Below are positions 7,085-58,079 of a stretch of 64,000 nucleotides of DNA, in pieces (within the stretch, counting starts at the first letter, position 1; the number at the start of each line of letters is the position of its first letter). The translations under genes were made by a program, and so were the position numbers. The stretch comes from Trichuris trichiura (lineage: Eukaryota > Nematoda > Enoplea > Trichinellida > Trichuridae): positions 4,290,001 through 4,354,000 of the forward strand of contig JBAJFE010000042.1 of NCBI GenBank assembly GCA_037903355.1, given 5' to 3'. The notes below the pieces were generated by a model. It did no database searches. It was not told the DNA's origin and saw nothing but the letters and a program-made list of their open reading frames with translations.

Positions 7085-7197
7085 GTAAGCAATGACGAGT
7101 ATATTCCTTTTGGATAAATTATTCTATTTCATTTTTTGGCTTCTTTTTGTACGAATTTTCTATGTCCCGTTGAAAAAAGCTTTTATTAATAAACTGT

Positions 7198-7237
7198 CCG
7201 TAGCTTTCGGGTCCGAACTTGACCCATCATCAGGGGT
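7198..7237 (-). ncRNA. Hammerhead-like ribozyme core (PLE)
   Basis: Minus strand: CTGATGA, stem II GGGTC/GACCC, GAAA, GCTA, then CGG. Stem I is weakened here (CCC against CGG). It is the partner of the better copy at 7992. Confidence 0.55.
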
Positions 7238-7991
7238 CTAAGGATTGACGTATGAATAAAGTGCACTAGTAACGTGCAAGGTGTATAGCTGTTTAAAGGC
7301 CAGTGTTTTAAAGTGGGCCTTGTAGTTCTTTTCTCTTTGTCTGTCAGCAGTTCGAGCGGGTGTATCCAATTTTAGTTGAGCGAGCAACAATTCGAGCGGG
7401 TTACAATATTCGTCCATATTTCATTTATTTCCGCTCCTTTATCTCGGTTGTAGGTTGTGTTGTTTCTAATATACTGAGCTTCCTTAATTTTTCGTAAGCG
7501 TACATTCTTTTCATAACATAAAACTTTTGCGCCAAGGCTTAGATTGCAATGTGATGCGTATTCCACAACAGCCGAGGCTAGTATTGCCTTCTCCATGGTG
7601 ATCCTTGGGTCTGATATTGGTCTTCCACGTTGTCTTGTGTGGTTGTTGCCGTTGCTGAGAATGTTTTTAGCGTTGTTATAAGTGGTTAAACCCTTTATGT
7701 GAAGTTTTATGTTATGAAAAGAATGTACGCTTACGAAAAATTAAGGAAACTCTGTATATTAGAAACAACACAACCTACAACCGAGATAAAGGGGCGGAAA
7801 TAAATGAAATATGGACGAATATTGTAACCTGCTCGAATTGTTGCTCGCTCAACTAAAATTGGATACACCCGCTCGAACTGCTGACAGACAAAGAGAAAAG
7901 AACTACAAGGCCCCTTTTAAAACACTGGCCTTTAAACAGCTATACACCTTGCACGTAACTAGTGCACTTTATTCATACGTCAATCCTTAGA

Positions 7992-8030
7992 CCGCTGATG
8001 ACGGGTCAAGTTCAGACCCGAAAGCTACGG
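7992..8030 (+). ncRNA. Hammerhead-like ribozyme core (PLE)
   Basis: CCG, CTGATGA, one extra C, stem II GGGTC/GACCC, GAAA, GCTA, then CGG. Stem I is CCG/CGG. Predicted cleavage is after GCTA (H17 = A). Helix III would be the self-complementary AGCT. Confidence 0.7.
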
Positions 8031-8112
8031 ACAGTTTATTAATAAATGCTTTTTTCAACGGGACATAGAAAATCCGTACAAAAAGAACCCAAAAAATGAA
8101 ATTATTTGGTCC

Positions 8113-9797
8113 CGTACGAAGACACTATATCTTCAAAATTATTCTATATGCACAAAGAATTACGTTTTCAAATGCACTTAGATTACCAAAAGAGCGTTGT
8201 TCTAACTGGTTCTATGAAAACAACATGCAAGTAAATCTAGCAGAGTCGTTATCCGTCAAAACAGAATTATAGTTATGATGGAAATAATTTCAGTTGCACT
8301 AATTTCGTTCTTTGAACCTAATTCTCAGTTGTCATTGCAAAGCACTCTTGGATCGCTGATATATTTTTCCCGTCGTTTGGGAGCGTAACACTGTCGATTA
8401 AAGGCTCCTTTCTGGTGCAGAGCAACTTTTTTCCCATCCGCTGAAGAGTCGTTTACCATTCGATCGCGAAAGCAGGAAAAAGGATGTTCTGGACTTCTCA
8501 CTTATTGAATTTCGTGTACAGTTTGGTGAACCGTTTCACTGGTAAGAAGAGTGCAACCGTTATCTGCTTTAAAATAGTTAGCTGCCATTTTAGAGAATCA
8601 CGGTGTACTCGTTTTTATTGAAGCAGTTTGGAGAACGGAGCTTTCGTGCCCTTCAGGTTCCGTCCTAAGCGGAACAGATCAGGAGGCAGAAGTTCTCTCA
8701 GATTTGTTTCGATAAAAACGGGCACACCGTAGTTCTCTATGATCAAAATCAATGCGCGCATTATAAAATACCCTGTTTTCAATAACCAGTTGCAACTGAC
8801 AGAGATATGGATGGCTTCATAAAGGGTTTTCAATGCGTAAGATCCCTAGTTTACCTGCACGGCGTTCCAGTAGTTATTATAGTTGGAGCCACCGTTCCAC
8901 TGCGTTAGCAGGAGCTGGGCGCTTGAATACTGCAAAGCGCATGCAACAGTGCATGAGATCCTCAGCTGCAGTGAAACATACTGCTGACTGTCTGGATAAC
9001 TTATAATTAAACTTTTCGCGTAAAGAAACCATTACTAAACAAGGTAAATTAAAGAGACCTTCATGGAAAACCATCAATCAAAGGGGTGCAACTGAGCAGC
9101 GTTTGAAAACCGATAGTAAAGAACTACGTTAACGCAAAAAGCTTAGCTAGAAGTGCCCTGAAAGGTATGCTTTTTTATTTGCCTTGTAGTACCTGGCTTT
9201 TTCCGTACAAAGAACATAAAACTCTAATAAACCGTACGAAATAACTGTTCACTATGAAGATGAATGACGTAAAATGTTAGGTTCCGAATGTTTGAAGTAT
9301 GACTTAAACTTGTTGCTCCTACTATGTCCTGGAACACATTTTTACGCACATGCTGAGGACAGGTCTTACCTGATCTGAAAGCTCTATGGTACTTTACTGC
9401 ATTAGATGGCTTTAACGCAGCTTACTATGAAAATACTATTGGTTTTTCTATAAATCTTTCATTTCATCGCGTTAGGTCACTGACTCGTTTTCTTTGTTAT
9501 TTTCACTACTGCTGCCTTTTGGACGAGTTTGAGAGAAACTTGACATAGTGAAGCACCTGAGTAAAACCATACACAATTTAAAAGTTCAGTGAGTTAGCCA
9601 GTGGACATCCTTTTCTGTTGGTAGTAGTAAAAGTTTTATTGATGGACCAACTGTTATTGCATAAGGGACACACAATACTAGGTTTCCTATTGACAAATTT
9701 ATGTTAATAATATGAGAAACAAGAAAGCTTTTACTGTGATTTCGTATTATCGCACTTCAACGATAATAGACGACAAAATTTGGATCTTTACAAAGGT
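8113..9797. other. Intron sequence, no gene recognised
   Basis: AT-rich and non-coding, within intron 1 of protease 1. A short PLE-type terminal tail (GGTCCCGTACGAAGA) is at about 8109. Nothing else is identified. Confidence 0.4.
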
Positions 9798-10955: not shown

Positions 10956-11287
10956 TTTTTCGTCAAGACCCCCAAATTTAATACTTACCTAGCTTAGCTC
11001 TGCTGAACGGGTAAGTGACTGGTATTTTATGATTAGAATGGATCTGCTTTCTTATTTTATGGTTAGCAAAGATGAAGAACTGTTCAGTGAATAAATTAAA
11101 GATACGATTTAGTAGCACGTAGGAGTATAAGTTCATGTTTTTTCTCAGACAACTGTCAGTAGCAGAGGAAATTTGGCTAACTGGAAAACAAGCTGCCAAA
11201 GAGTTTTGGAAGAGACGTCTGTTTTGCTAATAATATATAGTTACTGCAGTGAATGTAAACGATCACATAAGAGTAGGAAATGTGTGC

Positions 11288-11452
11288 ATAATGCAAAAAC
11301 TTTATTACGGAATAATTCCCGTTTAATGCGTGTTGACTCCGGAGCTTTCGGGTCAACCGAGACCCGTCTTCAGCGGCTGTGAATTATGCGGAAGCTCCGG
11401 AGTCAACACGCATTAAACGGGAATTATTCCGTAATAAAGTTTTTGCATTATG
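11288..11452. mobile_element. Short PLE inverted repeat
   Basis: A hairpin whose outer arms, about 55 bp, match well (AATGCAAAAACTTTATTACG and its complement). The left arm holds a complete ribozyme-like core; the right arm keeps only the 3' part (GAAGCTCCGGAGTC). Confidence 0.7.
11339..11376 (-). ncRNA. Hammerhead-like ribozyme core (PLE)
   Basis: Minus strand: CCG, CTGAAGA, stem II GGGTC/GACCC, GAAA, GCTC, CGG. All family features are intact. Confidence 0.7.
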
Positions 11453-11721
11453 AAAACATACGGTCCCGTACGAAGAAACCACATTTTCAAGATTACGAAA
11501 TGTGTGGTCTTAAAATAAAATATATGCTTACAATAGCAGTCAGTCAGTCATATCCATTCAGATATCCTTCGTTAACGATAAAACTGAGAATCGCAGGAGT
11601 CTTTCTTGGTTGCCTGGATAATATGTTATGGAACTTTCCGTGCTCTGCTCAGTTTCAAAATCCTTTTTGTTGCATTCAATGTTTCTTTATCCGGGTCTTT
11701 AAAACTCTTTCCTCACCAGTT

Positions 11722-13426: not shown

Positions 13427-13721
13427 GTACGTTAGTTTTCTATCGTTTACAGCATTGAGTAATCTAAGTCTTATCTCGATAAATGCTATACACAAGATAA
13501 ATAGTTTAAGCGTTTACATTTTAATTCACTGTTAATTGGTACTAATTCTATTAATGTTGAAGATTGGATGCTTCTTAACAAGTCTGAGGATTTTCATGAT
13601 GGAGGTTTTCTTACGGCTTTCTGCCTTGCCCGTTGCTGGTTTTTGAAATAACCGCATCAAATGACCTACCAACGGATGGATGAGCAGTTGTTAAGGAAAA
13701 CTTCAGAACACCCTTACGCTT

Positions 13722-13760
13722 TCGGAGCTTTCGGGACCAACCTTGTCTCGTCGTCAGCGA
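13722..13760 (-). ncRNA. Hammerhead-like ribozyme core, single PLE copy
   Basis: Minus strand: TCG, CTGACGA, a stem II related to GAGAC/GGTCCC, GAAA, GCTC, CGA. Stem I is TCG/CGA, a compensatory change relative to CCG/CGG. No inverted partner is seen nearby. Confidence 0.6.
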
Positions 13761-14089
13761 TGACGGTAATGCAATGCCAGCATAGTTAGCTGTCTGTATG
13801 AATCACTGCAATGCCATGAATGTAAAGATTACGGGAGAAGCAACGTCAACGTTCTCACAAAGGTTTATTGAAGCAGCTTATCAGAGGTTACGTGAAGCAG
13901 CTAAGTCTTCAGTCATAACGAAACGACCTTGTGGGGTAATATTCCTAGTCATACATACGTGAGTAAGAGTGAACAGTTTTCAAGCTATCTAAAAACAGCT
14001 TTAGTTCAACGCTACGTGGAAATGTGACAGGTCATGTGATCAGATCAAGCCTTACAATCTTTTAAGAACAGACAAAACCGGCCTGCCCA

Positions 14090-14505: not shown

Positions 14506-14554
14506 CAAACTCCCAGTAAAACCGTCTACACGCGATGTTACAGACAGCGTAGAA

Positions 14555-18856: not shown

Positions 18857-18922
18857 TATATGTGTATATATGATGTAAAAGTTTTATTACGGAAGTATTC
18901 CTGTTTAATGTTCTAAATAACT

Positions 18923-18960
18923 CCGGAGCTTTCGGGTCGACCGAGACCCGTCTTCAGCGG
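18923..18960 (-). ncRNA. Hammerhead-like ribozyme core (PLE)
   Basis: Minus strand: CCG, CTGAAGA, stem II GGGTC/GACCC, GAAA, GCTC, CGG. Intact by all family features. Confidence 0.7.
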
Positions 18961-19372
18961 TTGTGAATTACAGATGTAACTTGTGCGCGTGACTTTAGTC
19001 TTCTGTCGCTTTCATGGTTTTAAAGCGGGTGTTTTTAAAGCTCTTTGTTGGTGGTCTTCTGTTTGCATGATATGTAATTTGTCCGTTTTTTCGCATTTTT
19101 TCATGTGCGGGAATTATTTCTTCTTTCTCTTGCTCCATGTGTTCTTGTATCATGTCCAATTATGGAGCAGCAGTTGGACATGATACAAGAACACATGGAG
19201 CAAGAGAAAGAAGAAATAATTCCCGCACATGAAAAAATGCGAAAAAACGGACAAATTACATATCATGCAAACAGAAGACCACCAACAAAGAGCTTTAAAA
19301 ACATCCGCTTTAAAACCATGAAAGCGACAGAAGACTAAAGTCACGCGCACAAGTTACATCCGTAATTCACAA

Positions 19373-19410
19373 CCGCTGAAGACGGGTCTCGGTCGACCCG
19401 AACGCTCCGG
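19373..19410 (+). ncRNA. Hammerhead-like ribozyme core with core mutation
   Basis: CCG, CTGAAGA, stem II GGGTC/GACCC, then GAAC instead of GAAA, then GCTC CGG. The partner arm keeps GAAA, so this arm has probably lost activity. Confidence 0.55.
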
Positions 19411-19502
19411 AGTTATTTAGAACATTAAACGGGAATACTTCCGTAATAAAACTTTTACATCATGAAAACATACGCTCCCGTACCAAGAAACCACATTTTC
19501 AA

Positions 19503-19503
<1 letters not shown>

Positions 19504-19583: not shown

Positions 19584-19757
19584 TATATAGCGTCCTTCCG
19601 GTGGATGTGTCACCGTCGCGGCAGGGTTAGGCGTTGACTGACGAGGCAGGACCAAGACTTGACGGCTCAAGATGGACCTGACAGCTGCGGCCCTGGCCGG
19701 AGTTGGTCGGATAAGGGGCTTGCAACCGTGAAGACCGGCCTGATGGTGGGCATTCCT

Positions 19758-19798
19758 AGCGCTGAAGACGGGTCCCGGAATGACCTGAAAGCTCCGCT
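19758..19798 (+). ncRNA. Hammerhead-like ribozyme core, single PLE copy
   Basis: AGCG, CTGAAGA, stem II around GGGTC/GACCT, GAAA, GCTC, CGCT. Stem I is four pairs (AGCG/CGCT), a compensatory variant. Confidence 0.65.
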
Positions 19799-19849
19799 TG
19801 AAACGTTATTTGATGAACGAAGGGTTAAAAACCATATATAAATGTGTTT

Positions 19850-27419: not shown

Positions 27420-28135
27420 ATTTAAAATTGAACATAATAACCTAAGCACACCGTACAAATAAACTTTTTCAACATGAAAATATATAGTCCCGCTAAGAAG
27501 AGTTACTTATTCAATTTCAATGTTTTCTACGAAAATTCACGCATAATGAAAACTACAACATATAATGAGAAAATCACGACTTCACGCTCTGACGCTGCTA
27601 GAGTGGTTTCCGAAATTAAAAGCGGTCGTTCAGTGTCGTACATTAGAGAGCTAGCGACTTTTGTTGAGCACTACGCGTTATCAAATTGCATATTACAACC
27701 TAAATGCCCCGTTTAGTCAACATTTAATCTGCAACACGTTCAACGGTTCTCAGTAATATCAACCACTAATATCAGGGACCCCAAAATAAACTCAGGTTAT
27801 TCAACAGCTGAATTTCGACGAAATATCTATCGAAAATAATGCTTGATTTTGACTCCATTTAAGTTTTGAAAATGATCTCTTCTACTAACCTCAAAAGTCG
27901 TACAAAGGCTCCCAAATAAGCAAAAGTTTGGTCCAGAGGTTCACAAGAGTTAATCTCCGATACGCTCAGCCTATTAGCCTATGAGAGATTGGTTGGCAGG
28001 TTGATTAATAACAGATTGAAGTTGTTGAAGACGAAAGGTACATGGATTTTTCCCGTTTCTAATTTGCCAATGAAACGAGTCAAAAGGTAAAAAACTTTAT
28101 TGTCGTTCAAAGGCACAAAACCAAACACATGTCTG

Positions 28136-28173
28136 GCGAAGCTTTCGGCTCAATCTTGAGCCGTCATCAGCGC
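28136..28173 (-). ncRNA. Hammerhead-like ribozyme core (PLE)
   Basis: Minus strand: GCG, CTGATGA, stem II GGCTC/GAGCC, GAAA, GCTT, CGC. Both stems differ from the CCG/GGGTC type by compensatory changes. Confidence 0.7.
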
Positions 28174-28739
28174 ACGAAGGAGTTGCCCTCCCACCGAGTT
28201 CTTCCTCAGGAGTTGCTCCTCCACCTTTCCGAGTCGTGTGCGTGCCTGTCTGGTCGAACCTTGACCTGTCGAGGATATATGCACACGGCTGGATCAGCTT
28301 CGGAGCAAATTCCTTAGAGGCTGTCCTCGGCGGAGGCACAACGCGTAATACGGAGGTCAGTCAAAGTTATGTGAGGCGTCCTGTCGAAAAAACAGGACTC
28401 GAAAACACCGGATTGGACAAAGAAGCAAACCCCCTACACGTGGACAAACAGCCGTCGCCCCTAACATCGGCAGGTTGACCCATTTCGACAGGACGCCTCA
28501 CATAACTTTGACTGACCACCCCATTTCGACAGGACGCCTCACATAACTTTGACTGACCACCGTATTACGCGTTGTGCCTCCGCCGAGGACAGCCTCTAAG
28601 GAATTTGCTCCGAAGCTGATCCAGCCGTGTGCATATATCCTCGACAGGTCAAGGTTCGACCAGACAGGCACGCACACGACTCGGAAAGGTGGAGGAGCAA
28701 CTCCTGAGGAAGAACTCGGTGGGAGGGCAACTCCTTCGT

Positions 28740-28777
28740 GCGCTGATGACGGCTCAAGATGGAGCCGAAAGCTTCGC
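28740..28777 (+). ncRNA. Hammerhead-like ribozyme core (PLE)
   Basis: GCG, CTGATGA, stem II GGCTC/GAGCC, GAAA, GCTT, CGC. Mirror of 28136. Confidence 0.7.
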
Positions 28778-29138
28778 CAGACATGTGTTTGGTTTTGTGC
28801 CTTTGAACGACAATAAAGTTTTTTTTTTTTTTTTTTTTACCTTTTGACTCGTTTCATTGGCAAATTAGAAACGGGAAAAATCCATGTACCTTTCGTCTTC
28901 AACCACCTAACCCGTTACCAACTTTACGCCTTCAGATTGAAGTTGTTTTTCATTTTACTGGTCCACTTCGCTACGTTAGCACGTTAGCGAAAATGAAGAA
29001 ATCCAAGCTTACCTTCAAATTTCGTCATAAACTTAAGCGTAGAGGTAGTCAACCATGTTGCAGCCTCACGGCAACAGATTCAACCGCTCCTTACTAAAAC
29101 GCAAAAATGAACGCGTGAAAATCTCTTTCTTCATTCAG

Positions 29139-35502: not shown

Positions 35503-35548
35503 TTCTCTTTTTGTTAGGAATTTTCCGTTTCTCATCAGAACCTTTTTC

Positions 35549-35591
35549 TTGCAGAGCTTTCGGCGTCAACCTTGGGCCGTCTTCAGCGCAA
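35549..35591 (-). ncRNA. Hammerhead-like ribozyme core (PLE), five-pair stem I
   Basis: Minus strand: TTGCG, CTGAAGA, a GGCCC-type stem II, GAAA, GCTC, TGCAA. Stem I has five pairs including one G-T. Confidence 0.65.
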
Positions 35592-35780
35592 ACAACCAAA
35601 CAAGCAAAAATTCACAGAACCTCTCTTTGCTTTCACCAGGACTGGCTGGTGAGAAACTCTTCCGTATTGCCAGCTGACGTGATTCCCCGTCAAGTCAACC
35701 CAATACGAGAGAGCTTTTCACCAGCCAGTCCTGGTGAGAGCAAAGAGACGTTTTGTGATTTTTTGTTTGTTTGGTTATTT

Positions 35781-35819
35781 GCGCTGAAGACTGCCCAAAA
35801 TTGTGGCCGAAAGCACCGC
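35781..35819 (+). ncRNA. Hammerhead-like ribozyme core (PLE)
   Basis: GCG, CTGAAGA, a stem II of TGCCC/GTGGCC type with imperfect pairing, GAAA, GCAC, CGC. Confidence 0.55.
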
Positions 35820-36111
35820 AAAAAAAGAATTCCTGATGAAAAACGGGAAACCATCCGTAATAAAGTGAAAAAAATTTCATCCTTGTCTAAATGAGATCAT
35901 CTTTATGAAACAGGAAATTCATTCTGTTGTATTTCCAATAAATAAACTGTTGTGACAAAATCATTTGCCACGAATATCAGAGGCATATGACGCAGAAAAA
36001 ACTAGGGTGCCTTACGTTACACGGAATTACGGTGTGCCAGTCTTATTCTGAAATTTTGGCGGGATTTTTTAACCCGTTCTTGGTTAAACGTTTATTTAAA
36101 AAAAAACAGTA

Positions 36112-36150
36112 ACGGAGCTTTCGGGCCTCTCCGTGGCCCGTCATCAGCGT
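36112..36150 (-). ncRNA. Hammerhead-like ribozyme core (PLE)
   Basis: Minus strand: ACG, CTGATGA, stem II GGGCC/GGCCC, GAAA, GCTC, CGT. Both stems differ from the CCG/GGGTC type in a compensatory way. Confidence 0.72.
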
Positions 36151-36730
36151 AATTGTACCGCCGGTCGGGTCGGCCTTTATGGTTGCAAGCTGCTCCATCC
36201 GACCAACTTTGGCAGAGACCTACCGCCGTCAGTTCTATCTTGAGCCGTCAGGTTTCGGTTCCGCCTAGCTAGTCAGACGGCGCAGCGAGCTTCCAACCGA
36301 CCTTCCGCGACGGCGGCACGAGAACAAGTGAGAACCAATGAGCATTCAATCGACGTTTGCCCGTTTGTTTTAAACAACAAGAAAGAAGAAAAACGAAGAA
36401 AGAAAAAAGAAGAAAAGAAAAAGAGGAAAAAAAGAAAGAGGACAACGAGGGGGAAGAAGAATGAAGGCTTAGTGGCGGGAAAACATGTTTAAAATCCGTT
36501 TGCTTGTTTGAAACAAACGGGCAAACGTCGATTGAATGCTCGTTGGTCCTTACTTGTTCTCGTGCCGCCGTCGTGAAAGGTCAGTTGGAAGCTCGCTGCG
36601 CCGTCTGACTAGCTAGGCGGAACTGAAACATGACGGCTCAAGATAGAACTGACGGCGGTAGGTCTCTGCCAAAGTTGGTCGGATGGAGCAGCTTGCAACC
36701 ATAAAGGCCGACCCGACTGGCGGTACAATT

Positions 36731-36769
36731 ACGCTGATGACGGGCCACGGAGAGGCCCGAAAGCTCCGT
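36731..36769 (+). ncRNA. Hammerhead-like ribozyme core (PLE)
   Basis: ACG, CTGATGA, stem II GGGCC/GGCCC, GAAA, GCTC, CGT. Mirror of 36112. Confidence 0.72.
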
Positions 36770-36870
36770 TACCGTTTTTTTAAATAAACGTTTAACCAAG
36801 AACGGGTTAAAAAATCCCGCGAAAATTTCAGAATAAAATTTAAAAAAACCCGTTACGAAGAAAGAAAAAA

Positions 36871-39692
36871 GTGCCAGTCTTATGGAATATTTAGAGGAAT
36901 TAGCTTTCAGCACCTCTAATCTATCCACCATTCCATGTTTTCTCAAAAGATGCGCTAATGACGTCTTTGCTACTGCAAAGACAGGTAACGAATCTTGCTT
37001 CCTTGAAATCCGCATATTTTTTCCGCAGTCAAATCGTACTTACCTTTTGAAAAGAAACCCAAAGTCGGCTGAGCTTTCTAGATGTACTCATTAAGGAAAA
37101 TTCAAATAAACTTCGAAACACGGCGTACCCATTGCCAACTCATTTCGACGTAGTTGGCACTTTACTTCACGTCCTTCCGTATCCATCAAAATCGTTGTAA
37201 CGAAAAATTTAACCGTACAATTTCACACTGCAGTTCTTATTTTTATTCCTTTGAAATAATACATCTGAAATAGGATGCAGATACAGTAAAACATAGTCAT
37301 AAATGCAGACCCATATGGGTGAAATAGATAAGCAGCCTCCCACGAACGTCATATGCATAAACAATGGATACTATTGAAGCTATTGACGCTCTGTAACTAT
37401 GGAAAGTACGAACACGCGTATAGACACATAAAAACAAAAATAAAAATGGACACACAGGTGTTAACTATAAAAATTTTAGTGATACAAGTAGGCATCTGCT
37501 GACAGGAACCCCAAAAGAAGACTTTCCATTTGCATCATCACCGTAAAACTACACCGGCGCACTTTAAAGCCAAACTGACCGAAAACACCCTCCTTGTCAT
37601 TTCCGTCACTCCCCCTCCCTGTTCGCTGAAGACTAGTGAAGATGTCATTTGAAGGCAAGGGTCATCACAATTTTGTTCTATGTCATAACAGGACACTGCC
37701 ATAACAGTGAAATTACATACTTCACATAAAGTTCTTTTGTTCTGTGCCAAAGAGCTATGTTTCCAATGCACCTGAAAAGAAAAATGATAAAAAGAAGAGG
37801 AAAAGCAATAGTAGGTGTTGGAAATTTTTGTGCATAGCACACGAACTGAACAAGCAACAATTTAATAGCGAAGCTGCGCCCAGAGCAAGCAGCTGCCAGG
37901 GAAGCACAAGAAAAGGTAATGAAATCGCCTACTGCAAAGGAAAGATGACAAGGGCGACGTAAGAATGAAGAAATTATTTAGGTTGCTGTTGTGGCCACGG
38001 ACAGCAGACAGGATCACAAAATAGAAATTACTAGTAGCTGCTACCCGCTATGACGTCCAACTCCAGATGCCGTACACTTCCAACGGAAGAAGAACAAACT
38101 TCAAAAAACAATAATGGAAAACGGAGAATTAAGACAAGATAGAACCCACTGAGGCAATATACACACGAAAAGAAATGAAGAAAGAAAATTAAAAAGGAAT
38201 AAAAAGAATGAAGAGAACAGACGATATGCACAACATACTTATGTATAACAAACCAATAAATGATTAATTCGTCTTTAAAGAATGTAATAAGCATTTTAAA
38301 GATGGTTATACGTGGAAACTGGTTAAAACCCAGGTGAAACTTTTTACTTGCGAAGCTTTCCGCCCGCGACCATGGGCCGCCATCAGCGCAACGAACGAAC
38401 AAACAAATGTTAACAGAAAACGTCTCCTTGCCTTCAGCAGGAATTGGCAGGTGAGGCGCCCTTCCGCGTTTCAGAAGAAACGGGAAGTCCGTAACAAAAA
38501 TTTATGAAAAACTGAAATCCCGTTAAAGAACAAGTGAAAATCAAAAAAACCAGGTGAAAACAAAAATAGAAATATAAGTGGGTATGTATCATAGGTAATA
38601 CTCCCGTAACGTGAGTGCTGTTACCTGCAAAATGCTGGAAAATTTTGCATTATGTACATATTGTGTTAAAGCAGACACGTAAAGCATAAAAAAATCAGGA
38701 TTTAGGGCAAAGCGTCAGAAAGATTGTTTACTTCTGAACAGTAACGCGGAGGAGTCGTAAATAAGTAGCGCTAAAAAAGCAATTACACCGTGTCTGCGCT
38801 ATTTATTCATGCCATTAGACAAGCAAGGCCATGAGTCTTACACAGGATCTGAACAACAGGTTCTTTTAATAATAATAACATATTAACGAGGTAACTTTTA
38901 TGGTAAAACCCTTTACAGCAGATAGAGCTCAAAGTTGCCTTCAAGGCAGCATTCTTGCGTCTTTACCCATTAAAAAGAGATCCTTTCGACCCTGAAATTA
39001 ATGACCTCGTATCAAGAAGAAAATAGAAGACCGTTGGACTGACTCACTAGTCTTTTACATTGCTGTACTTAATTACGGGCAAACTAAGCTCCTACTAGAC
39101 ATACACGTTGTCGGCCTCACGGTGCTGCTTCATCCCAGTGAAAATAAATGTCTACCGTCATTTTAATCAACCAGCTCTTTCATCAGGTGCTTTGACCTTG
39201 GCAGTTAATCTACAGCGCAAGATGTCATCCCATTGTTAGATTAAACAAGCGCTCTGTAAACATTATTTGCGCCCTATCAGTTTTTTTCAAAGCGCAACCA
39301 CGATGAAAGAGAAAACGCAAAGGATACGGCTAGCTACACGATGAAAAATGTTTTGTTGACGCTCATTCGCACTCATATGCAAAGTGTACAAAATGCAGAA
39401 ATAAAGCAACAGTTAAAGCGAATTGTTATGGAAAAGGATTTTAATTATTGGCTGCCGTCACGTTTTTGAAGTGTTATTTAAAAGCGTTTGTTCTGATTTG
39501 CAAGGTTCTAACAAAATTAATTACACAGGTTTCCAAAAGTAAATATTTCAGACCTATGGAACGTCGCACATGAATAGAAAATGAAATTTTCACTTGTTAA
39601 CGCACATGCTGACACCAGCTGCTGTGCGATAAATTTGAGTAAATGTAAACGCAAAATTAGCCTAAATACTGCCCGCAATTTGTATTTGCATC
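36871..39692. other. Intergenic between the two proteases, no gene recognised
   Basis: Non-coding apart from the single PLE copy near 38.35 kb. The stretch before 39693 should hold the promoter of protease 2. No TATA box stands out. Confidence 0.4.
38348..38391 (-). ncRNA. Hammerhead-like ribozyme core, single PLE copy
   Basis: Minus strand: TTGCG, CTGATGG (A9 changed), a GGCCC-containing stem II, GAAA, GCTT, CGCAA. Stem I has five perfect pairs. Confidence 0.55.
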
Positions 39693-40684: not shown

Positions 40685-40983
40685 TTTGGGAATCTTATTC
40701 TGAATTTTTTTCGCGGAATTTTTAACCCGTTCTTTGTTAAACGTTTATTTTAAAAAAAACGTTAACGGAGCTTTCGGGCCTCTCCGTGGCCCGTCATCAG
40801 CGTAATTGTACCGCCGGTCAGGTCGGCCTTTATGGTTGCAAGCCGCTCCATCCGACCAACTTTGGCAGAAACCTACTGCCGTCAGCTCTATCTTGAACCG
40901 TCAGGTTTCGGTCCCGCCTAGTCAGTCAGACGGCGCAGCGAGCTTCCAACCGCCCTCCCACGACGGCGGCACGCGAACAAAAA
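40685..40983 (-). mobile_element. PLE half-copy
   Basis: Closely matches the left arm of the 36.04-36.87 kb PLE repeat, from the outer tail through the ribozyme to GGCGGCACG(C/A)GAACAA, and stops where a MITE end begins. There is no inverted partner. Confidence 0.8.
40765..40803 (-). ncRNA. Hammerhead-like ribozyme core (PLE)
   Basis: Minus strand: ACG, CTGATGA, stem II GGGCC/GGCCC, GAAA, GCTC, CGT. Confidence 0.7.
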
Positions 40984-44245: not shown

Positions 44246-44444
44246 CAGTTGAACCCCCGTAAGTTGACCACCCAACAGACTGAGGAAAACTGGTCGACAT
44301 ATGCAAGCAGTGGGCATTAAGTGGCTCGACTGAACAGATAAGCATCTGTATGCGTTTTATTCTGTTGCACAACATCTATTGGAAGTCCATTAAATGGCGA
44401 CGTGCATAAAAATAACGTCACTGTAAAATCATGCATACGATTTT

Positions 44445-44987
44445 TTAGGGGCTAGAATGCTTCCTGAAAAACGTGTCAATTCTAGTCTGGTGCTTGTTCA
44501 TACTACAAACAAAAGCGGTAACAGCGGTCTCTGCGCCCGCTACCGCGCTCAGCGCCTCTAAGCATTTTTCAGCAGCAAGAAACCTCAGCGAGGCTAACAT
44601 GCTCCCGACGTCCTGTTCCTTCACCACTTGTACCATTTCCGTCTCATTGTCACTTACCTCCTCTGCGTCGTCTCTTGCGCTACTTGCTTCTACTCTCGTT
44701 CCCGCTTCGGCTAGTATAGATTGAAAGATTGCTTGTGGGTCAGGTCTGGTAGGAATGATCATCACATCATCTATTGCAACGAAATGTTCGAAATCTACTC
44801 CTTCAAACTCTGCCTCGCGAGTTGGACTATCAGGCTGGAGCTCGGCATTATCCACTTGGTCTTTGACGAATCCAGCTCTCCTGAACCACTTCCTTATTGC
44901 CTCCGGTTGAACCTTATTCCAGGAAGAATCGAGCCAAAATTCGGCGTCCAAAGCATTAATGATCGCAGCAATCGAAGTCGCTCCCAA
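44445..44987 (-). pseudogene. Tigger transposase C-terminal region
   Basis: A 180-codon open frame with LDSSWNKVQPEAIRKWFRRA and GF, the typical post-DDE Tigger motif. Then comes a long acidic and variable tail ending in MNKHQTRIDTFFRKHSS, resembling the 'qttldsFF' end of the family. The frame is intact here, but the gene is broken elsewhere. Confidence 0.85.
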
Positions 44988-45235
44988 AGATGAACTGGTG
45001 ACTTCTGCTTTGCGAATGACCCAATGCAGAAGCTGGGTCAGGTATTTCGCTTTAAACGTCTTGATTACTCCTTGATCTAGAGGCTAGGTTTTTGAGGAAG
45101 TATTTGAAGGCAGGAACTTCAACGTGACGTTTGTTAGGTGTTTCACCTGGGGATGGCTCGGACAGTTGTCTACTACCAGTAAGATAGAACGTCCCATTCG
45201 CTTCATCTGTCGGTCGGCACTTCTTATCCACTTCT

Positions 45236-49999: not shown

Positions 50000-51162
50000 T
50001 AAGCTGGTAAATTATTATAAAGAAAGTAGTATTAAAACATATTAACTCATATTGCTATATTAACAGAAGATGAGACTTTCGTAAAGAGACAATGAGTTTC
50101 TATTCATTTCTATTCACTACTGAACTGACTCGATTTTAGCTTTGATGTTCAATAAATCAATGCTAATATAGCAACAGTATGAACAATTGCTGACTGAGTC
50201 ATTTGTTAGCGTAAGCGTGCAATGCTGAGCATGGAGGTGATGTAAGAAAGCAAGTCACGGAATAGAAAAACAAGTGAAATCCTGATTCCCCTGAATTTTA
50301 CTGCTTCTGCGTTATTTTCACTAACAAAGAAACCTCTTACCTAACTGTCAGCCTTCATAATGCGCTACAATGTTACACGATAATATTAAGAACATTAATA
50401 TTGTTCTGATTTTTTTAGCGGGATTTCTGCCCGTTTCTTAGTAGAGGAGAGAGAAAAAACATTAACATTAACAGAAATCAAGTCGCTCGCCAACCAATAA
50501 ATTTTGTTTTAATATTACTGACTTTCCGATAACGATTCTGTTTAGTTTCATTTCTCATAAGGAAAAATTCATTCATGCTAACTGCATGCATTGCTCACAG
50601 TCCAACATGGTATGCGTAGCGAACAGGTGGACAGATAAATAAAGGTTGCAACAAGTGCATTGATCACACTGGCTACTTGAAACGAACTGTTCTAATGCTA
50701 GCGTTAAGAAATGTCCTTCCGCGCTAGATGAAAAATGTGCCTATTCCGTTGAGAACAATGGAAGTTACAATGAACAACAATTTTCGTTCTTGAAAAATGG
50801 GCGCTTCGTAACGGGGTGGATGACTTCATTGAGGATCTTTCACGACTTTTTCCATTCTTTCTCGCATAGAGAGAATCTGTACTTACGCTACGCAAATGCT
50901 CTACCAGCAGAGGGCTGAGCGATTTATTATTGGTATTGCACCGTTACTTAGCAAAGCCCTCATCCATCCATTGGTAGTACTCAGCACTTAGTGTAAGTAC
51001 TCAGCACATAACAAAGAAAGGAAAAGTCATGAAAAGTCCTCATTATAAACTAGTTCTTAAGATTAAACGTTTGTTGAACGCTTAATCTTTCTCATCTACG
51101 TTTCATATTGTACTGTGTAAAGAAGTTGTCCTCACTTCATAGACTCAGGTTACATTCCCCAG
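50000..51162. other. Intron 2 of protease 2
   Basis: AT-rich. A trace of a PLE arm (TTTTTTTAGCGGGATTTCTGCCCG) is at 50409-50435. No gene seen. Confidence 0.4.
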
Positions 51163-51539
51163 AATTTGCCAAAAAACTTGCAAGCAGTTGACGGATGTTC
51201 CGTTAAAGTACTCTGACAATACCGTTAATGTTAAGCTGGATCTCAATTGTAGAAACAACAATGCTGGTCAGTCCCTTCCAAGGGCGTCTCAAATAAGGGT
51301 GTACCTCGGTGTTCACAATGCTGTTCAGCTGAACGCTAATGCTCGCATAATGCGAGTTACTGCGTTTTCCATTGCTGATTACCAAAGCTTTAAAAAGCAA
51401 AATGATATTGCACTGTTGAAGTTGAAACAAGCGGTTCCTTACGATGAATATATTCGAGGCGTCTGCATCCCTCCAACAAGCAATGATTTCCCTCCCACAG
51501 GACAACCATGCTACGTCACAGGCTGGGGACGAATGAACC
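51163..51539 (+). CDS. S1A serine protease 2, exon 3 (catalytic Asp)
   Basis: Acceptor ACATTCCCCAG| at 51162; donor ATGAACC|GTAAGT at 51540; 377 nt. The first base completes the codon AG+A and one base is left over. It encodes an insert that protease 1 lacks, with three extra Cys (ICQKTCKQ and LNCRNN). Then come IRVYLGVHNAVQLN, QNDIALLKLKQAVPYDEY with catalytic Asp102, GVCIPP (Cys122) and CYVTGWG (Cys136). The 54-nt difference from protease 1 is a multiple of three, so the exon phases agree. Confidence 0.9.
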
Positions 51540-51544
51540 GTAAG

Positions 51545-52371
51545 TTCAGCTATGCTGCATTCCAATGTTACCCTTACATTTTATTGTACCACTATAATGC
51601 TTAAACGTTGCGCCAGTGATTTCCAAGCTGGGTGATGTCGCTTCCTTTGGGAGGGATGGAAGCTGAGAGGGTGTTATGGGGAGGGGGCGACAGATGACTA
51701 AAGGGCATGTTGTTATATCTGCTGCTCGTCGAAGCCAGTAGGGGTTCCAGCTAAGCGTTTACTACTGAATGACTGAGGGACGACCCAAGAGCGAAGCGAC
51801 AATCAAACGCGTAGTTTTCAGCACGACCCAATCTCAAATGGCGAGTAGGTTTTCGATTAAACGATGCGTTCTTTACGTGAATCTTGTTCGAAAACTTAGT
51901 ACTTCCAGAAACTTAAGAGGTCACCGAAAGATTAGGAAAGCGTATTCATTACGCTTCACTGTTGTAGCTTTGGTGTTGGCGTTTTTAGTAATCATTATTA
52001 ATAGCGAACCTCCAGATGTCGTTGTAATATACGCTCCTAAAAGACAATGCAAGTCGAAGTGGAGTAGGAAATCATATTAGCAATCTCCCAAGAAGGTTCT
52101 CCGTTTTATCATCTCTCAATAAGAGCTTTCAGAATACCGCTGTCACTCTTTTGTTGTTCACTTGTGTAACACTTGCTCACTTTCCCAGCAATGGCATTCA
52201 AATGTGAAGGGTGGTTTTTCTAAAACGAGTAGAAATGAACAGAAGAAAGAAATGTGATGACGGCAATTAAACTGCAATTTGTTTCAGCCCTTTAATGACA
52301 ATGTGCTATTGTTTTTCCTTTGCTGAATTCATCTTTTTGGTGAACGGTTTATCCGTTCTCATCGCCTAAAT
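51545..52371. other. Intron 3 of protease 2, nothing recognised
   Basis: A 103-codon frame at 51769-52080 has no recognisable similarity and looks like chance. Confidence 0.4.
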
Positions 52372-52839
52372 TGGGGGTGCGGAATGTCCAGCCCGCAAGA
52401 CCATTCCATCCAACCCGTGAAACATTCCCTCCTACCCGCTGAGGCAACCGCACATGGATGTGAAATTCAATGAAATCTGACTGTGAGAGCTTATTTTTTG
52501 AAAATGCGATAAACTTATTGTATTTGGATCGTAGTAACAACATAAATCTTGCGTAACAAGCAGGGAGCATCAAGTGGGCTAGCAAGATTGCCTTGCTGTC
52601 AGCTCTCTGTCGAAAAACAGACGTCGTTAGTCTTTGGAGGCAAGCAGTAGGCGGCATTACTGTGCGCGTCGGTAGCGTGGACCATTGGCCGCCAACCGAC
52701 CCAAAGTATTATTCTTATCTCGCCTTACCGCTTTGTTCGAGGGGTGACTTAAATGAACGTATATGCAAATAAAGCAGGCTATGTTTTTCGGTTGAGTATT
52801 CTGTACGGCCAGCGGCAGCATAAAGGTTCCCCACCCCTG
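52372..52839. mobile_element. Non-autonomous hAT element
   Basis: Right end GGTTCCCCACCCCTG at 52839 and a matching left end TGGGGGTGCGGAATGTCC at 52372. They are flanked by GCCTAAAT and CTCTAAAT (6 of 8 match). The reading CAGGGGTGGGGAACC from the right is a common hAT terminus. Confidence 0.6.
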
Positions 52840-53029
52840 CTCTAAATGGATAAACGGGATAAAATTTTTTGGTCTATGGAAATATCACCCGCTGAAATTA
52901 TCGCAATATCCCTTTGCGCAGGTGACATGGTATAAGGAAGGATTGACGAAATTAGTCATGACGTGGAAGAGTGATGTGTCTTTATTACAGAGCGTATGTC
53001 CCGTTGATATGTAAAATAAACTTTAATTT

Positions 53030-53067
53030 CCGGTGCTTTCGGGTCTATCTTGACCCGTCTTCAGCGG
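53030..53067 (-). ncRNA. Hammerhead-like ribozyme core (PLE)
   Basis: Minus strand: CCG, CTGAAGA, stem II GGGTC/GACCC, GAAA, GCAC (T16.1 changed to A), CGG. Confidence 0.6.
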
Positions 53068-53935
53068 TCATAAATGAATGTAGTTTGCCGAGCGAGGTCA
53101 ACATTCAAACGTTTTCTAACGATATGAAAACGAGAGTTTTAAAGTTTTCTATTGGAGATTTCTTCTGTGTCTGTCAGCTGCCACTACCCTTGTTTCGTGA
53201 ATCTTGTAGAATTTTACGTCTGTGCATATTGATTTATTTTTCTATTTTCTTCTATCGTCAATTCCCGTTTTTTATTCATTTTTATCCATTTGTGTGTTCC
53301 ATACTTGTAAGTTTGCTTCTTGTTTGTTCCAAATAATCTGTGGCTTTATCCAATTTTCACTTGTTCCATACTTGTTAGTGACTTGTTTCTTAACTTTTTC
53401 CAGGTGCTCTTGTATCTTATCCATTCAGTGAGCAACAGTTGTGGCGGGTGATAATATTTGTGCATAAATCGATCGCGGATAAAGGTCACGTTGTGAACGA
53501 CCTTTAACCGCGATCAAGGGGCAGATATAAGTGATTTATGGACAAATATTATCACCCGCCACAACTGTTGCTCACTGAATGGATAAGATACAAGAGCACC
53601 TGGAAAAAGTTAAGAAACAAGTCACTAACAAGTATGGAACAAGTGAAAATTGGATAAAGCTACAGATTATTTGGAACAAACAAGAAGCAAACTTACAAAC
53701 ATGGAACACACAAATGGATAAAAATGAATAAATAACGGGAATTGACGATAGAAGAAAATAGAAAAATAAATCAATATGCACATACGTAAAATTCTACAAG
53801 ATTCACGAAACAAGGGTAGTGGCAGCTGACAGACACAGAAGAAATCTCCAATAGAAAACTTTAAAACTCTCGTTTTTAAACCATTAGAAAACGTTTGAAG
53901 GTTGACCTCGCTCGGCAAACTACATTCATTTATGA

Positions 53936-53973
53936 CCGCTGAAGACGGGTCAAGATAGACCCGAAAGCTCCGG
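53936..53973 (+). ncRNA. Hammerhead-like ribozyme core (PLE)
   Basis: CCG, CTGAAGA, stem II GGGTC/GACCC, GAAA, GCTC, CGG. Intact. Confidence 0.72.
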
Positions 53974-55238
53974 AGGTTAAAGTTTATTTTACATATCAAC
54001 GGGACATACACTCCGTAATAAAGACACATCACTATGAAAACTTACAGTCCCGTGCCAAAACATCACGTCTTCATGACGTAGAAGAGACTTTATTCTAGGA
54101 CTACACCATTTGCCTTGCGAATTGATGAATCCACTTTGCCTGCCAATAGAACAATATTTTTGCAGTATGTTCTGGCGAGATACAGAGTATCTTTTAATGA
54201 GTATGCGGGTTTCGAGTTCAAGATACGGCTTTTACGATCTACCCGTTTATTTCGAGAGTTCTGGAACTTACAGGACGTGTCGTGTACTGTCTTCATCCTC
54301 AAGCCACGGAAGACAGGACAGGAAGTGTCCTAAAAGCTCCACAACTGCTGCCAGAATAACCGGTTACGTCGTAGCTAATTTACTCTGAACGTGAAAACCT
54401 TTTGTTTGCTTATAAAGAATGGGCACATATTAAAGAAGCCACCATTCCTCTGAGAATTTGTGGCATTTGTGCTTGAACTTCAGTACAGTTCTTTTCTTGC
54501 CCATTCTTGCTTTCTGAACTTAACCAAACAAACGCCCTACCAACGGGCGAAGCTGCAGTTATTAGGGAAAGAGAACAATATTTAACTTTCAGAGCTTTTA
54601 GAACCTTGTCGCCTTTTTAGAGACTGTAGCTGAGAAAGCTTTACTCTGACGGTGAAGTACTGTGGAACCTCCAAAATTGACCACCTCTCTATGTTGACCG
54701 AAATTTGACAAGATGGTTGGTCAGCACGTAAATAAGCGCAATGACAACCTCTATACGTTGACTACCTCCGCAAGTGGGAAGTTAACCGCTTTGGCCGTGA
54801 CGTGGTACATCGACCCAATGCTAGTTTGCTCTCCATAAGTTGACCACTTCAGTTTGCTCTGTGTCTGTCGCTAGCAGCTGTTAACCGTCATTGCCTCAAT
54901 GTGCTATTACTCAACGTAGCGAAGTTTTTCATTACCGTGCATTAGAGATTCCTGATTACAGAACCGATTCCGTCGCTTTGACGATGTTTTTTCCATGCTT
55001 GCTGGCGCAGCTTGCGCGTTTTCTCGTTTACACGACCACTCACCTAAGCATCAACAGCATTCACCCATGACGTGAAATATGACGAATCGAGCCTAATTGT
55101 ATTCGTTCGCGTCGAGCTCCATTCTATTCATTCGCTTTGTTGTACCCGTGCGGGAGGTGGCCTTAGCGTGTCTTGACGAGTAAAGGTATTCTGACTTACG
55201 CACTAGTAGCGACCAAACTAGTTACGGTTTGCACTATG

Positions 55239-56162: not shown

Positions 56163-56427
56163 AAACTCCCCCCTACGTTAGTGAAGGGTGGTAACGATTA
56201 GCCCAGTGACGACGACGCTCATTGCTCATGTCTAGGTCTATTTTGATTGGTCAGTTTTCCAGTTGAAATAGAGGCAAGACAGTTTCAATTGGATGGACGA
56301 TTAGCATTCACAGGAAACTGACCCGTCAGAATTGACCTAGAGTTGAGCAATGAGCGTCGTCGTCACTGGGCCAATCATTACCACCCTTCACTAACGTAGG
56401 GGAGTTCTCATACGCCGCGATATACGG
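56143..56427. mobile_element. Palindromic pogo-type MITE
   Basis: Ends CCGTATATCACGGCGCATAA and, mirrored, CCGTATATCGCGGCGTATGA, flanked by TA. The arms continue inward for over 90 bp (ACTCCCC, CTACGTTAGTGAAGGGTGGT, GTGACGACGACGCTCATTG). It splits the transposase of the surrounding Tigger. Confidence 0.8.
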
Positions 56428-56508
56428 TAATTAAAATACTTAAAACGAAATGCAGGACCCAGCTTCTGCAGTCGGTCATTAGGAAAGCAGAAGCCCACCA
56501 GCTCAACT

Positions 56509-57057
56509 GTGGGAGCAACTTCGATTGCCGCGTCCATTAACCCTTTGAACGCCAGACTTTGGGTCAGCTCTTCCTGGAATGAAGTACAACCGGAGGCAAT
56601 AAGGAAATGCTTCAGGAGAGCTGGATTCATCAAAGACCAAGAGAATGATGTCGAGCTCAAGCCTGATAGTTCGACTCGCGAGGCAGAGTTTGAAGGAGTA
56701 GATTTCGAACATTTCATTGCAATAGATGATGTGATGATCATTCCTACCGGACCTGACCCACAAGCAATCTTTCAATCTATACTAGCTGAAGCGGGAACGA
56801 GAGTAGAAGCAAGTAGCGCAAGAGACGACGCAGAGGAGGTAAGTGACAATGAGACGGAAATGGTACAAGAGGTGAAGGAACAGGACGTCGGGAGCATGTT
56901 AGCCTCGCTGAGGTTTCTTGCTGCTGAAAAATGCTTAGAGGCGCTGAGCGCGGTAGCGGGCGCAGAGACCGCCGTTACCGCTTTTGTTTGTAGTATGAAC
57001 AAGCACCAGACTAAAACTGACGCTTTTTTGGCACTAAGGAAGCATTCTAGCCCGTGA
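56509..57057 (+). pseudogene. Tigger transposase C-terminal region
   Basis: 182-codon open frame nearly identical over most of its length to the minus-strand frame at 44987-44445 (EGVDFEHFIAIDDVMIIPT, EALSAVAGAETAVTAFVCSM). Its end differs slightly (KTDAFLALRKHSS), suggesting a small insertion. Confidence 0.85.
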
Positions 57058-57263
57058 AAAGCCTTGTGCATGGTTTTACAACAGCGTTACTTTTGTGCAC
57101 CTCGCCATTTAGTATACCTCCAACAAATGCTGTGCAACGGAATAAAATGCGTACAGAAATGTGATGTTTTAGTACGGGACTGTATGTTTTCATAGTTCAG
57201 CGTCTTTATTACGGTAGCTGTGTCCCGTTGGTAAGCACAAGAAAGAAAGAGAATGAAGAGTTT

Positions 57264-57301
57264 CCAGAGCTTTCGGGTCTGTCGCGACCCGTCGTCAGTG
57301 G
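57264..57301 (-). ncRNA. Hammerhead-like ribozyme core (PLE)
   Basis: Minus strand: CCA, CTGACGA, stem II GGGTC/GACCC, GAAA, GCTC, TGG. Stem I CCA/TGG is a compensatory variant. Confidence 0.72.
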
Positions 57302-57597
57302 TCAATATCTGTGTAATTTATGTGGGGAGATTTCTCTTGCATCATTTTCCATCGTTTAAACCGAGGATTTTAAAGTTATCTGTTGGAGATTTCTTCTGCG
57401 ACTGTCAGCTGCTTGTCTACTCTTTTTGTCTCTTTGCTCAAATGGATGAAAATTAAAAAAGAATAGACTAAAAAAAGAGTAGACAAGCAGCTGACAGTCG
57501 CAGAAGAAATCTCCAACAGATAACTTTAAAATCCTCGGTTTAAACGATGGAAAATGATGCAAGAGAAATCTCCCCACATAAATTACACAGATATTGA

Positions 57598-57635
57598 CCA
57601 CTGAGGACGGGTCGCGACAGACCCGAAAGCTCTGG
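57598..57635 (+). ncRNA. Hammerhead-like ribozyme core (PLE)
   Basis: CCA, CTGAGGA, stem II GGGTC/GACCC, GAAA, GCTC, TGG. Confidence 0.72.
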
Positions 57636-58079
57636 AGACTCTTCATTCTCTTTCTTTCTTGTGCTTACCAACGGGACACAGCTACCGTAATAAAGACGCT
57701 GAACTATGAAAAAATGCGTACAGATACTAATCTACTCAGCCGAGCCCATTATACCCGCAACCTCCCTGTTTTCTCCAGCCCTTCGAATGGTCAACTTACG
57801 GTGGTCCAACTGTATTTAAAGGCAAGGGAGGAGTGGCAGACAGTATGGAACAGCACCTAGTTTTACTGACAAGTGCCATCCCTACTATGCTGACCTCCAT
57901 TCTCTTATCGCGATTAATCAATGTCTTCCTGCGGATAAACAGGGAGACTAATTTTTCTCTGCAGAAATTGGCCCTTACGACAATTTTTCAAATGGGATCA
58001 CATAAACTCCGAGAGGCAGTTCAACAACTGCGTAACTATTCCTTGCTTCTTCCACAGTCTGAGATGACAGGAGTATTCA

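Follow-up and report, generated by a model that had tools for sequence, protein, structure and literature searches.

Hammerhead cores and inverted insertions at the locus

The window, a 64,000-nt stretch of the Trichuris trichiura assembly GCA_037903355.1 (contig JBAJFE010000042.1, positions 4,290,001 to 4,354,000), carries hammerhead-like ribozyme cores on both strands. A relaxed search that tolerated one mismatch in CTGANGA and in GAAAGC returned 23 of them, in keeping with the more than 20 copies counted in the initial annotation; ten Markov-1 simulations gave 1, 0, 1, 0, 0, 2, 0, 1, 0 and 0, and the core at 37626 is possibly a chance match. With a strict pattern, 11 exact matches were found in the window (expected, from 100 dinucleotide shuffles: 0) and 2,437 in the whole 72.7-Mb source assembly (1,237 + 1,200; reversed-pattern control, 0), and the same strict motif gave 0 and 0 matches in viral and prokaryotic collections. 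The 14 core positions listed in the annotation and its start at 7192 all hold the motif on one strand, including a copy at 38348 with a broken core (CTGATGG) and the copy at 7192, which has lost one stem I pair. Our analysis confirmed that the motif copies are genuine and form part of Penelope-like elements (PLEs).

Of the 23 cores in the window, 12 lie as six head-to-head pairs within near-perfect inverted repeats, an arrangement absent from the earlier description. The PLE-derived insertion at 7128..8135 (cores at 7233, minus strand, and 7995, plus strand) has arms that are 97% complementary and a tail on its right arm (~8099-8135), tail here meaning the opening ~22-45 nt of the PLE frame; the left copy of its target-site duplication (AAATTATTCTAT) occupies 7116..7127 and the right copy 8136..8147. 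The insertion at 18863..19503 (18957, minus; 19376, plus) also carries a right-arm tail, adjoins a TA repeat and received a weak duplication call (16 nt with mismatches, score 10). At 28027..28932 lies an insertion of the GCG/CGC stem I family (28170, minus; 28743, plus), with 98% complementary arms and a duplication at 28012-28026 and 28933-28947; it is of the one-tail class, and its family lacks a PLE-frame link here. An ACG/CGT stem I insertion at 36047..36870 (36147, minus; 36734, plus; arms 96% complementary, right-arm tail) is flanked by a duplication at 36034-36046 and 36871-36883, and a single arm of this 36-kb family sits on the minus strand at 40715..40980 (core 40800). For the insertion at 52972..54071 (53064, minus; 53939, plus; arms 97% complementary, right-arm tail), a 15-nt duplication with one mismatch (52957-52971 and 54072-54086) was read by eye and then scored. 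The insertion at 57158..57710, with a CCA/TGG stem I (57298, minus; 57601, plus; arms 96% complementary), carries its tail on the left arm and is bounded by a duplication at 57144-57157 and 57711-57724. The window further holds an older head-to-head pair at 35544..35826 (35586, minus; 35784, plus), with arms too divergent for tail scoring, an asymmetric head-to-head remnant at 11280..11459 that keeps a core (11373, minus) in its left arm only, the decayed CTGATGG core at 38348..38391 (minus), and solo cores at 19752..19804 (plus; AGCG/CGCT stem I), 13715..13767 (minus; TCG/CGA stem I) and 9343..9394 (plus; diverged).

The cores fit minimal type I hammerheads

Covariation of the stems, claimed previously, is borne out by 123 distinct cores, in which two-sided changes occur at all three stem I and five stem II pairs: 58 covariation cells compare with a shuffled mean of 6.4, cells that are not independent events because the core copies are related. 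Paired cells made up 96.3% in the same set, compared with 12.0-61.7% in slid controls. In 211 of 213 scan-called cores, CTGANGA is followed by a single unpaired base (201 C, 9 T and 1 A), as had been noted for the extra base before stem II, and the proposed AGCU-only helix III is likewise seen, GAAAGCT(C/T/A) following stem II and leading directly into stem I in 201 of 211 cores; the conserved core letters in these counts were fixed by the design of the search, and the scan also required GAA and GC.

CUGANGA and GAAA occur with stems I and II, as in type I hammerheads, and 8/8 stem pairs covary; the loop-closed helix III of that type is absent from these cores. They fit the minimal type I hammerheads of PLEs, which lack a looped helix III. 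The Rfam hammerhead models, to which the initial annotation had pointed, did not recover them: there were 0 matches at gathering score and no hammerhead family among 37 matches with E up to 10. Rfam microRNA matches in the window lay below gathering scores, several of the strongest fell on palindromes, and all were discarded as by-products of long hairpins. On paper, a double-hammerhead pairing would be nested for the four cores tried. Conservation suggests that the ribozymes cleave, and nothing here would indicate that insertion needs cleavage.

Cores reside in the leader of Penelope-like elements

A PLE connection had been suggested, and among 30 fetched GIY-YIG loci, 23 have a same-strand core downstream; in six others the 3-kb locus holds no core, and in one a core lies on the other strand only. 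Two core-adjoining frames, of 865 aa (L059) and 854 aa (L060) from stop to stop, encode RVT_1 followed by GIY-YIG in a single frame. At L061 and L062, both arms contain PLE-frame pieces, with GIY-YIG matches on both strands. Insertions here show the target-site duplication and the 30-40-nt tail from the frame start that are typical of GIY-YIG-type PLEs, and the cores sit in the leader, or pseudo-LTR, of these elements.

Same-family neighbours within 6 kb were head-to-head in 29 cases, direct in four and tail-to-tail in none, where three of the 29 are repeat sampling of one place and many loci had been picked for two close cores regardless of orientation. Direct same-family units were confined to L009, L012 and L016. 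A tail-to-tail arrangement was rejected, with 0 cases also assembly-wide for one pattern in one gap range. Palindromic centres of the ACCG-type families, sought in the assembly at four ranges of inner gap, numbered 107 at 0-30, 114 at 31-61, 10 at 100-130 and 4 at 300-330, with 0 in reversed controls. Many core copies are the two ends of palindromic insertions, which we regard as the more telling feature.

Very short palindromes number at least 221 in the assembly. Sixty short places were sampled in order from contigs C1 to C9, among the roughly half of the 221 that were listed, three places that had been sampled before being passed over; all 66 of 66 short centres are distinct, and they are near-symmetric, with short loops and filler. 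The median loop at the centre is 7.5, compared with 4.5 when two of the observed 5′ ends are drawn independently; since such draws are equally symmetric, we dropped the notion that centre symmetry reveals one shared template. One palindrome occurs at two unrelated sites (L110 and L150), so copying of a whole palindrome may happen on occasion. We also rejected the idea that RNA cut by the hammerhead is the template for insertion: the arm-end pattern for the cut site, sought in the CGGAGTTA families, was found at one place, which reads through the site. Arms that stop close to CCGTAATAAAG, with 5 matches forward and 7 reverse, were likewise set aside.

One tail per insertion

Target-site duplications are mostly 13-14 bp long. 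From a first set of 87 pairs, 81 were scorable, six being excluded for an arm score < 40 (L084, L092, L106, L115, L118 and window 35586). A duplication score of at least 10 was reached by 63 of the 81 (these include L022 at 929 and at 3053, mirror images of each other), and exactly one arm was tailed in 63/63; among 600 shuffled flank pairs, a score of 10 was reached by 16 and a score of 12 by one. In a hold-out set of 37 pairs, for which the prediction was fixed in advance and from which two were excluded (L142 and L158), one tail was present in 26 of the 27 insertions with a duplication (L136 being 97.6% like L117 over 700 nt). The exception, L123, has one arm with an internally deleted tail and one arm without a tail, and formally breaks the rule as stated. 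Over both sets, 89 of the 90 scored insertions carry a single tail, and all come from one assembly.

No duplication was called in 18/81 scorable pairs of the first set and 8/35 of the hold-out. Possible exceptions are L149, with homology past both arms and no tail seen, and L139, both arms of which break off early within an AAT repeat. L115 and L142 are two-family joins without a callable duplication; read by eye, each has one tail. For the target-site comparison, identical ends were dropped and 87 of 89 insertions kept; on both sides, the primer often has T as its last base (untailed 0.60 vs tailed 0.46), an asymmetry that was set aside.

Sibling arms belonged to the same family in 76 of 81 pairs, compared with 6.6% for random pairs. 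At L040, the arms are 82.5% alike, the left matching L052/L058 at 96.9% and the right L039 at 98.5%; this insertion has one tail and a 10-nt duplication, a rather weak call that 16/600 shuffled flank pairs also reach. Four pairs were nearer to other loci than to their sibling, of which L061 is listed only via duplicate sampling (L055, L056) and L018 is seemingly just old; two templates are indicated only at L040 and, less clearly, L017.

The idea that the tailed arm is always longer was refuted. It is longer in window 53k, L020, L040, L046 and L062, and shorter in three of the eight firmly readable pairs, namely window 7k (by ~175 nt), 18k (15 nt) and L061 (470 nt, all from BLAST extents). In window 57k, the tailed arm also reads shorter, by less than its unassigned bases. 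Arm length could not be read in other long pairs, as the reference copies there also occur in pairs.

Discussion

PLE hammerheads of a minimal type I form, without helix III, have been published (PMC7761336, PMC7229834, PMC6155905), the primary papers, as cited in PMC7761336, being those of Cervera and de la Pena (2014) and of Lunse, Weinberg and Breaker (2017). As described in PMC7761336, they share with the present cores the type I order, a helix III without non-conserved bases and a location in PLE pseudo-LTRs, and are thought to cleave as dimers. The cores here have a palindromic AGCU and, in 201/211, an extra C after CTGANGA, features that may set them apart from the published motifs. In the bdelloid rotifer Adineta vaga, endonuclease-containing PLEs have, as here, inverted head-to-head pseudo-LTRs with palindromic junctions, target duplications (8-10 bp) and a tail (31 bp) on one inverted end (PMC3846280). 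The tail is termed optional there, whereas one tail is present here in 89/90; our duplications are mostly 13-14 bp, and the assembly here holds at least 221 very short palindromes. Inverted arms and an optional tail are already published; for the strict rule, we found no published statement.

How PLEs insert is an open question according to papers of 2013 and 2024 (PMC3846280, PMC11167929). This genome offers hundreds of natural insertion junctions, many of them readable end to end, and the one-tail rule in the scored junctions helps to discriminate between the published ideas of self-priming and of both-strand copying. We consider it probable that, after a staggered cut, both 3′ overhangs serve as primers for reverse transcription, each at a different one of two RNA start sites, and that the cDNAs are joined head-to-head. 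The element's endonuclease would make the cut, leaving 3′ overhangs of ~13-14 nt, and both overhang ends would act as primers on element RNA. Copying would begin at a start site near the ATG for the untailed arm, and ~22-45 nt further into the frame for the tailed arm. Each cDNA would then extend across the hammerhead and in many cases stop within ~35 nt upstream of the core, presumably close to the 5′ end of the RNA. Short homology or filler DNA would finally join the cDNA ends into a palindrome flanked by the target-site duplication. In vitro, the PLE PAc of the lizard Anolis has both target strands cut and extended, and two RNA start sites bound the tail, as here (PMC11167929); PAc shows no strand difference in start site, whereas the scored genomic insertions here use one each. 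A counterpoint to priming on two templates is that sibling arms are nearly always of one family, which is also expected from self-priming or a shared template.

For the rotifer PLEs, self-priming was proposed, on an antisense template (PMC3846280): a cDNA or antisense transcript would fold back and copy itself, both arms then stemming from one molecule. The source reads its palindromic head-to-head junctions in this way, and the near-symmetric centres with short loops and filler and the usual one-family siblings here would suit it. Yet a copied arm could not gain a tail, and the one-tail pattern is left unexplained. The tailed first arm should be longer, yet is shorter in 3/8 pairs; centre symmetry is no tighter than that of two independent 5′-end draws, and the L040 arms derive from two subfamilies, which argues against self-priming. 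We regard it as unlikely.

Far less probable still, and poorly supported, is a MITE-like origin, in which ordinary DNA elements bounded by terminal inverted repeats multiplied as whole units and carried the ribozymes along. Inverted ends plus a target duplication do resemble a MITE, as does the palindrome common to L110 and L150, but the 66 short centres all differ, the outer ends are asymmetric in 89/90 scored cases, and the PLE-frame pieces in both arms of L061 and L062 speak against it. The cores could alternatively belong to animal non-LTR retrozymes, whose circular RNA, cut by the hammerhead, would spread with the help of PLE enzymes supplied in trans. Published retrozymes likewise carry type I hammerheads in short and sometimes tandem units, with RNAs of ~170-400 nt (PMC7229834); here, L009 comprises three direct 475-bp units and L012 two of 218 bp, with longest stop-to-stop frames of 165 and 112 codons. 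Against this stand the four direct versus 29 head-to-head neighbours, cDNA ends that do not coincide with the cleavage site (in the CGGAGTTA families) and the cores in 23/30 PLE loci. Published retrozymes mostly have canonical hammerheads with loop contacts, whereas the present cores lack a looped helix III and many lie in inverted PLE pieces. We deem this very improbable.

Returning to priming from both overhangs, we entertain, with less confidence, the broader idea that PLE insertion is obligately paired and asymmetric, both target strands being copied, one per RNA start site. The hammerhead might then be of the dimer type because two element RNAs always meet in the insertion complex. If the one-tail rule is valid in other species, it would give structural and biochemical studies of PLE complexes a specific prediction, and a reason to ask why the PLE ribozyme requires a partner. 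In Anolis PAc, the hammerhead lies near the frame start and is dispensable for insertion in vitro (PMC11167929). A conserved stem, in which leader ACGGGAN pairs with tail NTCCCGT, places the near start site in its loop and has its far side within the tail, so that it may serve as a start-site selector.

Hammerhead-like cores are carried by Penelope-like elements

The cores studied here combine CTGANGA, stem II and GAAA between the strands of stem I, with helix III reduced to AGCU. Checking 15 of the core positions in the initial annotation, we found the motif at all 15, the copy at 38348 having a broken core. With a relaxed search, the window yielded 23 cores and each of ten simulations 0 to 2; a strict pattern matched 11 times where 0 were expected. 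Across the source assembly (72.7 Mb, 62 contigs), the strict pattern occurred 2,437 times and its reversed control 0 times; viral and prokaryotic collections held no match to it. The Rfam search that the annotation had called for retrieved no hammerhead family, permissive E-values included, as expected given the missing helix III.

A core-calling scan of the fetched DNA, which itself demanded GAA and GC, yielded 213 cores, a few places being entered twice (loci L055 and L056 lie inside L061). A single unpaired base lay 3′ of CTGANGA in 211 of these and was C in 201 of the 211, confirming the proposed extra C before stem II, while GAAAGCT(C/T/A) directly followed stem II in 201 cores (157 + 24 + 20). 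In the standard hammerhead core, this C would have to remain unpaired, leaving G12 free; folded on its own, the core preferentially paired it with that G. The claimed covariation of stems I and II likewise stood: among 123 distinct cores, two-sided changes affected 8 of 8 pairs and filled 58 cells (shuffled mean, 6.4), and 96.3% pairing fell to 12.0–61.7% when the partner was slid by 1–3 columns. This covariation supports both stems, with the number of independent events overstated because core copies share ancestry. The ribozymes belong to a known class, with predicted activity.

Searching the assembly for GIY-YIG gave at least 81 matches, and 23 of 30 fetched loci had a same-strand core downstream, 204–876 nt from the match start. 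Two long core-adjoining frames (865 and 854 codons between stops) scored above the Pfam cut-offs for RVT_1 and GIY-YIG. This linkage and domain content mark the carriers, at the sequence level, as Penelope-like elements (PLEs), the association that the annotation had suggested.

Many cores are arranged in head-to-head pairs

Overlooked in the initial annotation, 12 of the 23 window cores form six head-to-head pairs within near-perfect inverted repeats. Neighbouring same-family cores at most 6 kb apart were head-to-head in 29 cases, direct in 4 and tail-to-tail in 0 over all loci, a count that includes three repeat fetches among the 29 and many loci selected for two close cores, regardless of orientation. 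Assembly-wide, ACCG-type palindromic centres numbered 107 at an inner gap of 0–30, 114 at 31–61, 10 at 100–130 and 4 at 300–330; most such palindromes therefore turn within ~35 nt upstream of the core in the gap ranges searched. The tail-to-tail pattern, sought over one gap range in the assembly, occurred 0 times. At L022 (929–3107), three head-to-head pairs form one larger palindrome, the outer two being mutual mirror images. The window palindromes at 19118–19215, 53383–53620 and 57387–57512 gave several microRNA-model matches below gathering scores, and small RNAs might be produced from such hairpins.

Exactly one arm carries a tail in nearly all scored pairs

The arms of 87 pairs (60 short ones in listing order, the other 27 drawn from the window and further loci) were aligned outward from the core by a script that sought a target-site duplication between both flanks; symmetric arm ends would appear as offsets near 0 and 0. 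Alignment was adequate in 81 pairs, and in 63 of these the duplication scored 10 or more, a level reached by 16 of 600 shuffled flank pairs (1 reached 12). Each of the 63 had exactly one arm ending in a tail, i.e. the first ~22–45 nt of the PLE frame, with none tailed on both arms or neither. The divergence point marked the end of the untailed arm (offset −8 to 2), and the tailed arm reached 24–44 nt further; tails lay on the left in 27 pairs and on the right in 36. A duplication-independent motif check concurred wherever readable; L033, the sole pair with the tail motif on both arms, has a right arm continuing into a frame and no callable duplication. Target-site duplications, counted together with those of the hold-out below and with identical ends dropped, mostly measured 13 or 14 nt (46 of 87 duplications; A+T, 69%).

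The remaining 37 listed places served as a hold-out, the prediction being recorded before fetching. Duplications were found in 27, with 8 lacking one and 2 unaligned. The stated pattern occurred in 26 of the 27 (tail offsets 22–45), the formal failure being L123, which has lost ~20 nt inside its tail. L139 and L149, pairs without a clear call, could be exceptions. In L009 (2000–3600; one inverted unit and three direct units spaced 475 bp), inspection by eye shows a duplication of 13 bp (ATAATTCTGCTTA) and, on the left, a longer tail, neither of which the script picked up.

This insertion pattern is known in outline: rotifer PLEs are described as having inverted pseudo-LTRs that are preferentially head-to-head, with palindromic junctions and with a tail at one of the inverted ends (PMC3846280). 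In that account the tail is termed optional, whereas here it follows a near-strict rule whose prediction was put to the test; no published statement of this rule appeared in the literature listings and passages covered.

Two templates or self-priming

Head-to-head palindromes could arise by self-priming (fold-back copying), favoured for rotifer PLEs in a paper that declares the question open (PMC3846280), or by both cut strands priming at two RNA start sites. Under self-priming, the copied arm should match the first arm's end or miss it at no fixed place, yet the tail sits on exactly one arm. Of the 8 pairs that could be read firmly, the tailed arm is moreover the shorter in 3 (window insertions 7k and 18k, and L061) and the longer in window 53k, L020, L040, L046 and L062; in window 57k the tailed arm seems shorter, but the difference is smaller than the number of unassigned bases (lengths derived from BLAST extents). 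The arms of L040, which has a single 10-nt duplication and a single tail, are only 82.5% alike and most closely match different loci, one resembling L052/L058 (96.9%) and the other L039 (98.5%) over 1.6 kb; L017 is a weaker such case.

These three results speak against self-priming, in favour of which sibling arms are nearly always of one family (76/81, against 6.6% for random pairs), being strictly nearest to each other in 47/81 and nearest or tied in 62/81. With two templates, this would mean that both usually come from one source. Apparent symmetry at the centres was no greater than two independent ends would give; by eye, they contain short homology and filler, and 66/66 differ. Centres of L103, L107, L119 and L141 hold repeated short inserts, by eye apparently copied from the adjoining arm, and might be products of polymerase-theta-type joining. 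The same palindrome is found in L110 and L150 at unrelated sites, which shows that a palindrome can be copied whole; L117 and L136 represent a single segment that has been duplicated.

The tail contains half of a conserved stem

The tail opens with the start codon (ATG) of the PLE frame (e.g. MKIYGPVRRNHIF, MKTYSPVPKHRIFK) and contributes the 3′ strand of a conserved stem, in which upstream ACGGGAN pairs with the tail's NTCCCGT. The seventh pair varies: upstream C faced G in 29/29 cases and upstream G faced C in 13/14 (the lone mismatch, L069, is not a tail), while upstream A or T (25 cases) was unmatched in 22; given two sets of families, this matching could stem from descent alone. RNAfold formed the leader–tail stem in 10/10 tails tried, and the loop of this stem is where the untailed arm terminates. 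Both features fit in vitro findings on a lizard PLE, for which reverse transcription is reported to begin at two adjacent tail-bounding sites, most often within an AC-rich stem-loop, with both target strands extended (PMC11167929).

The arms continue through the hammerhead, and none ended at the cleavage site in one set of families tested; uncut RNA thus seems to be the usual insertion template, as also reported for the lizard element in vitro (PMC11167929). The ribozyme is conserved, with covarying stems, although the arms read through it; we speculate that its need for a partner is tied to the pairing of two templates.

Other features of the window

A 534-nt inverted pair (44345–45083 and 56431–57157; 93% alike) contains long frames resembling what we take to be the C-terminal part of a Tigger/pogo-type transposase. 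Four scattered copies of a 71-nt repeat with GCCTAA runs (2187, 11875, 41753 and 60991) are akin to a telomere-type motif. An open stretch at 51143–51604 with trypsin-like residues by eye (IALLKL...VCIP...VTGWG) is probably a host exon.
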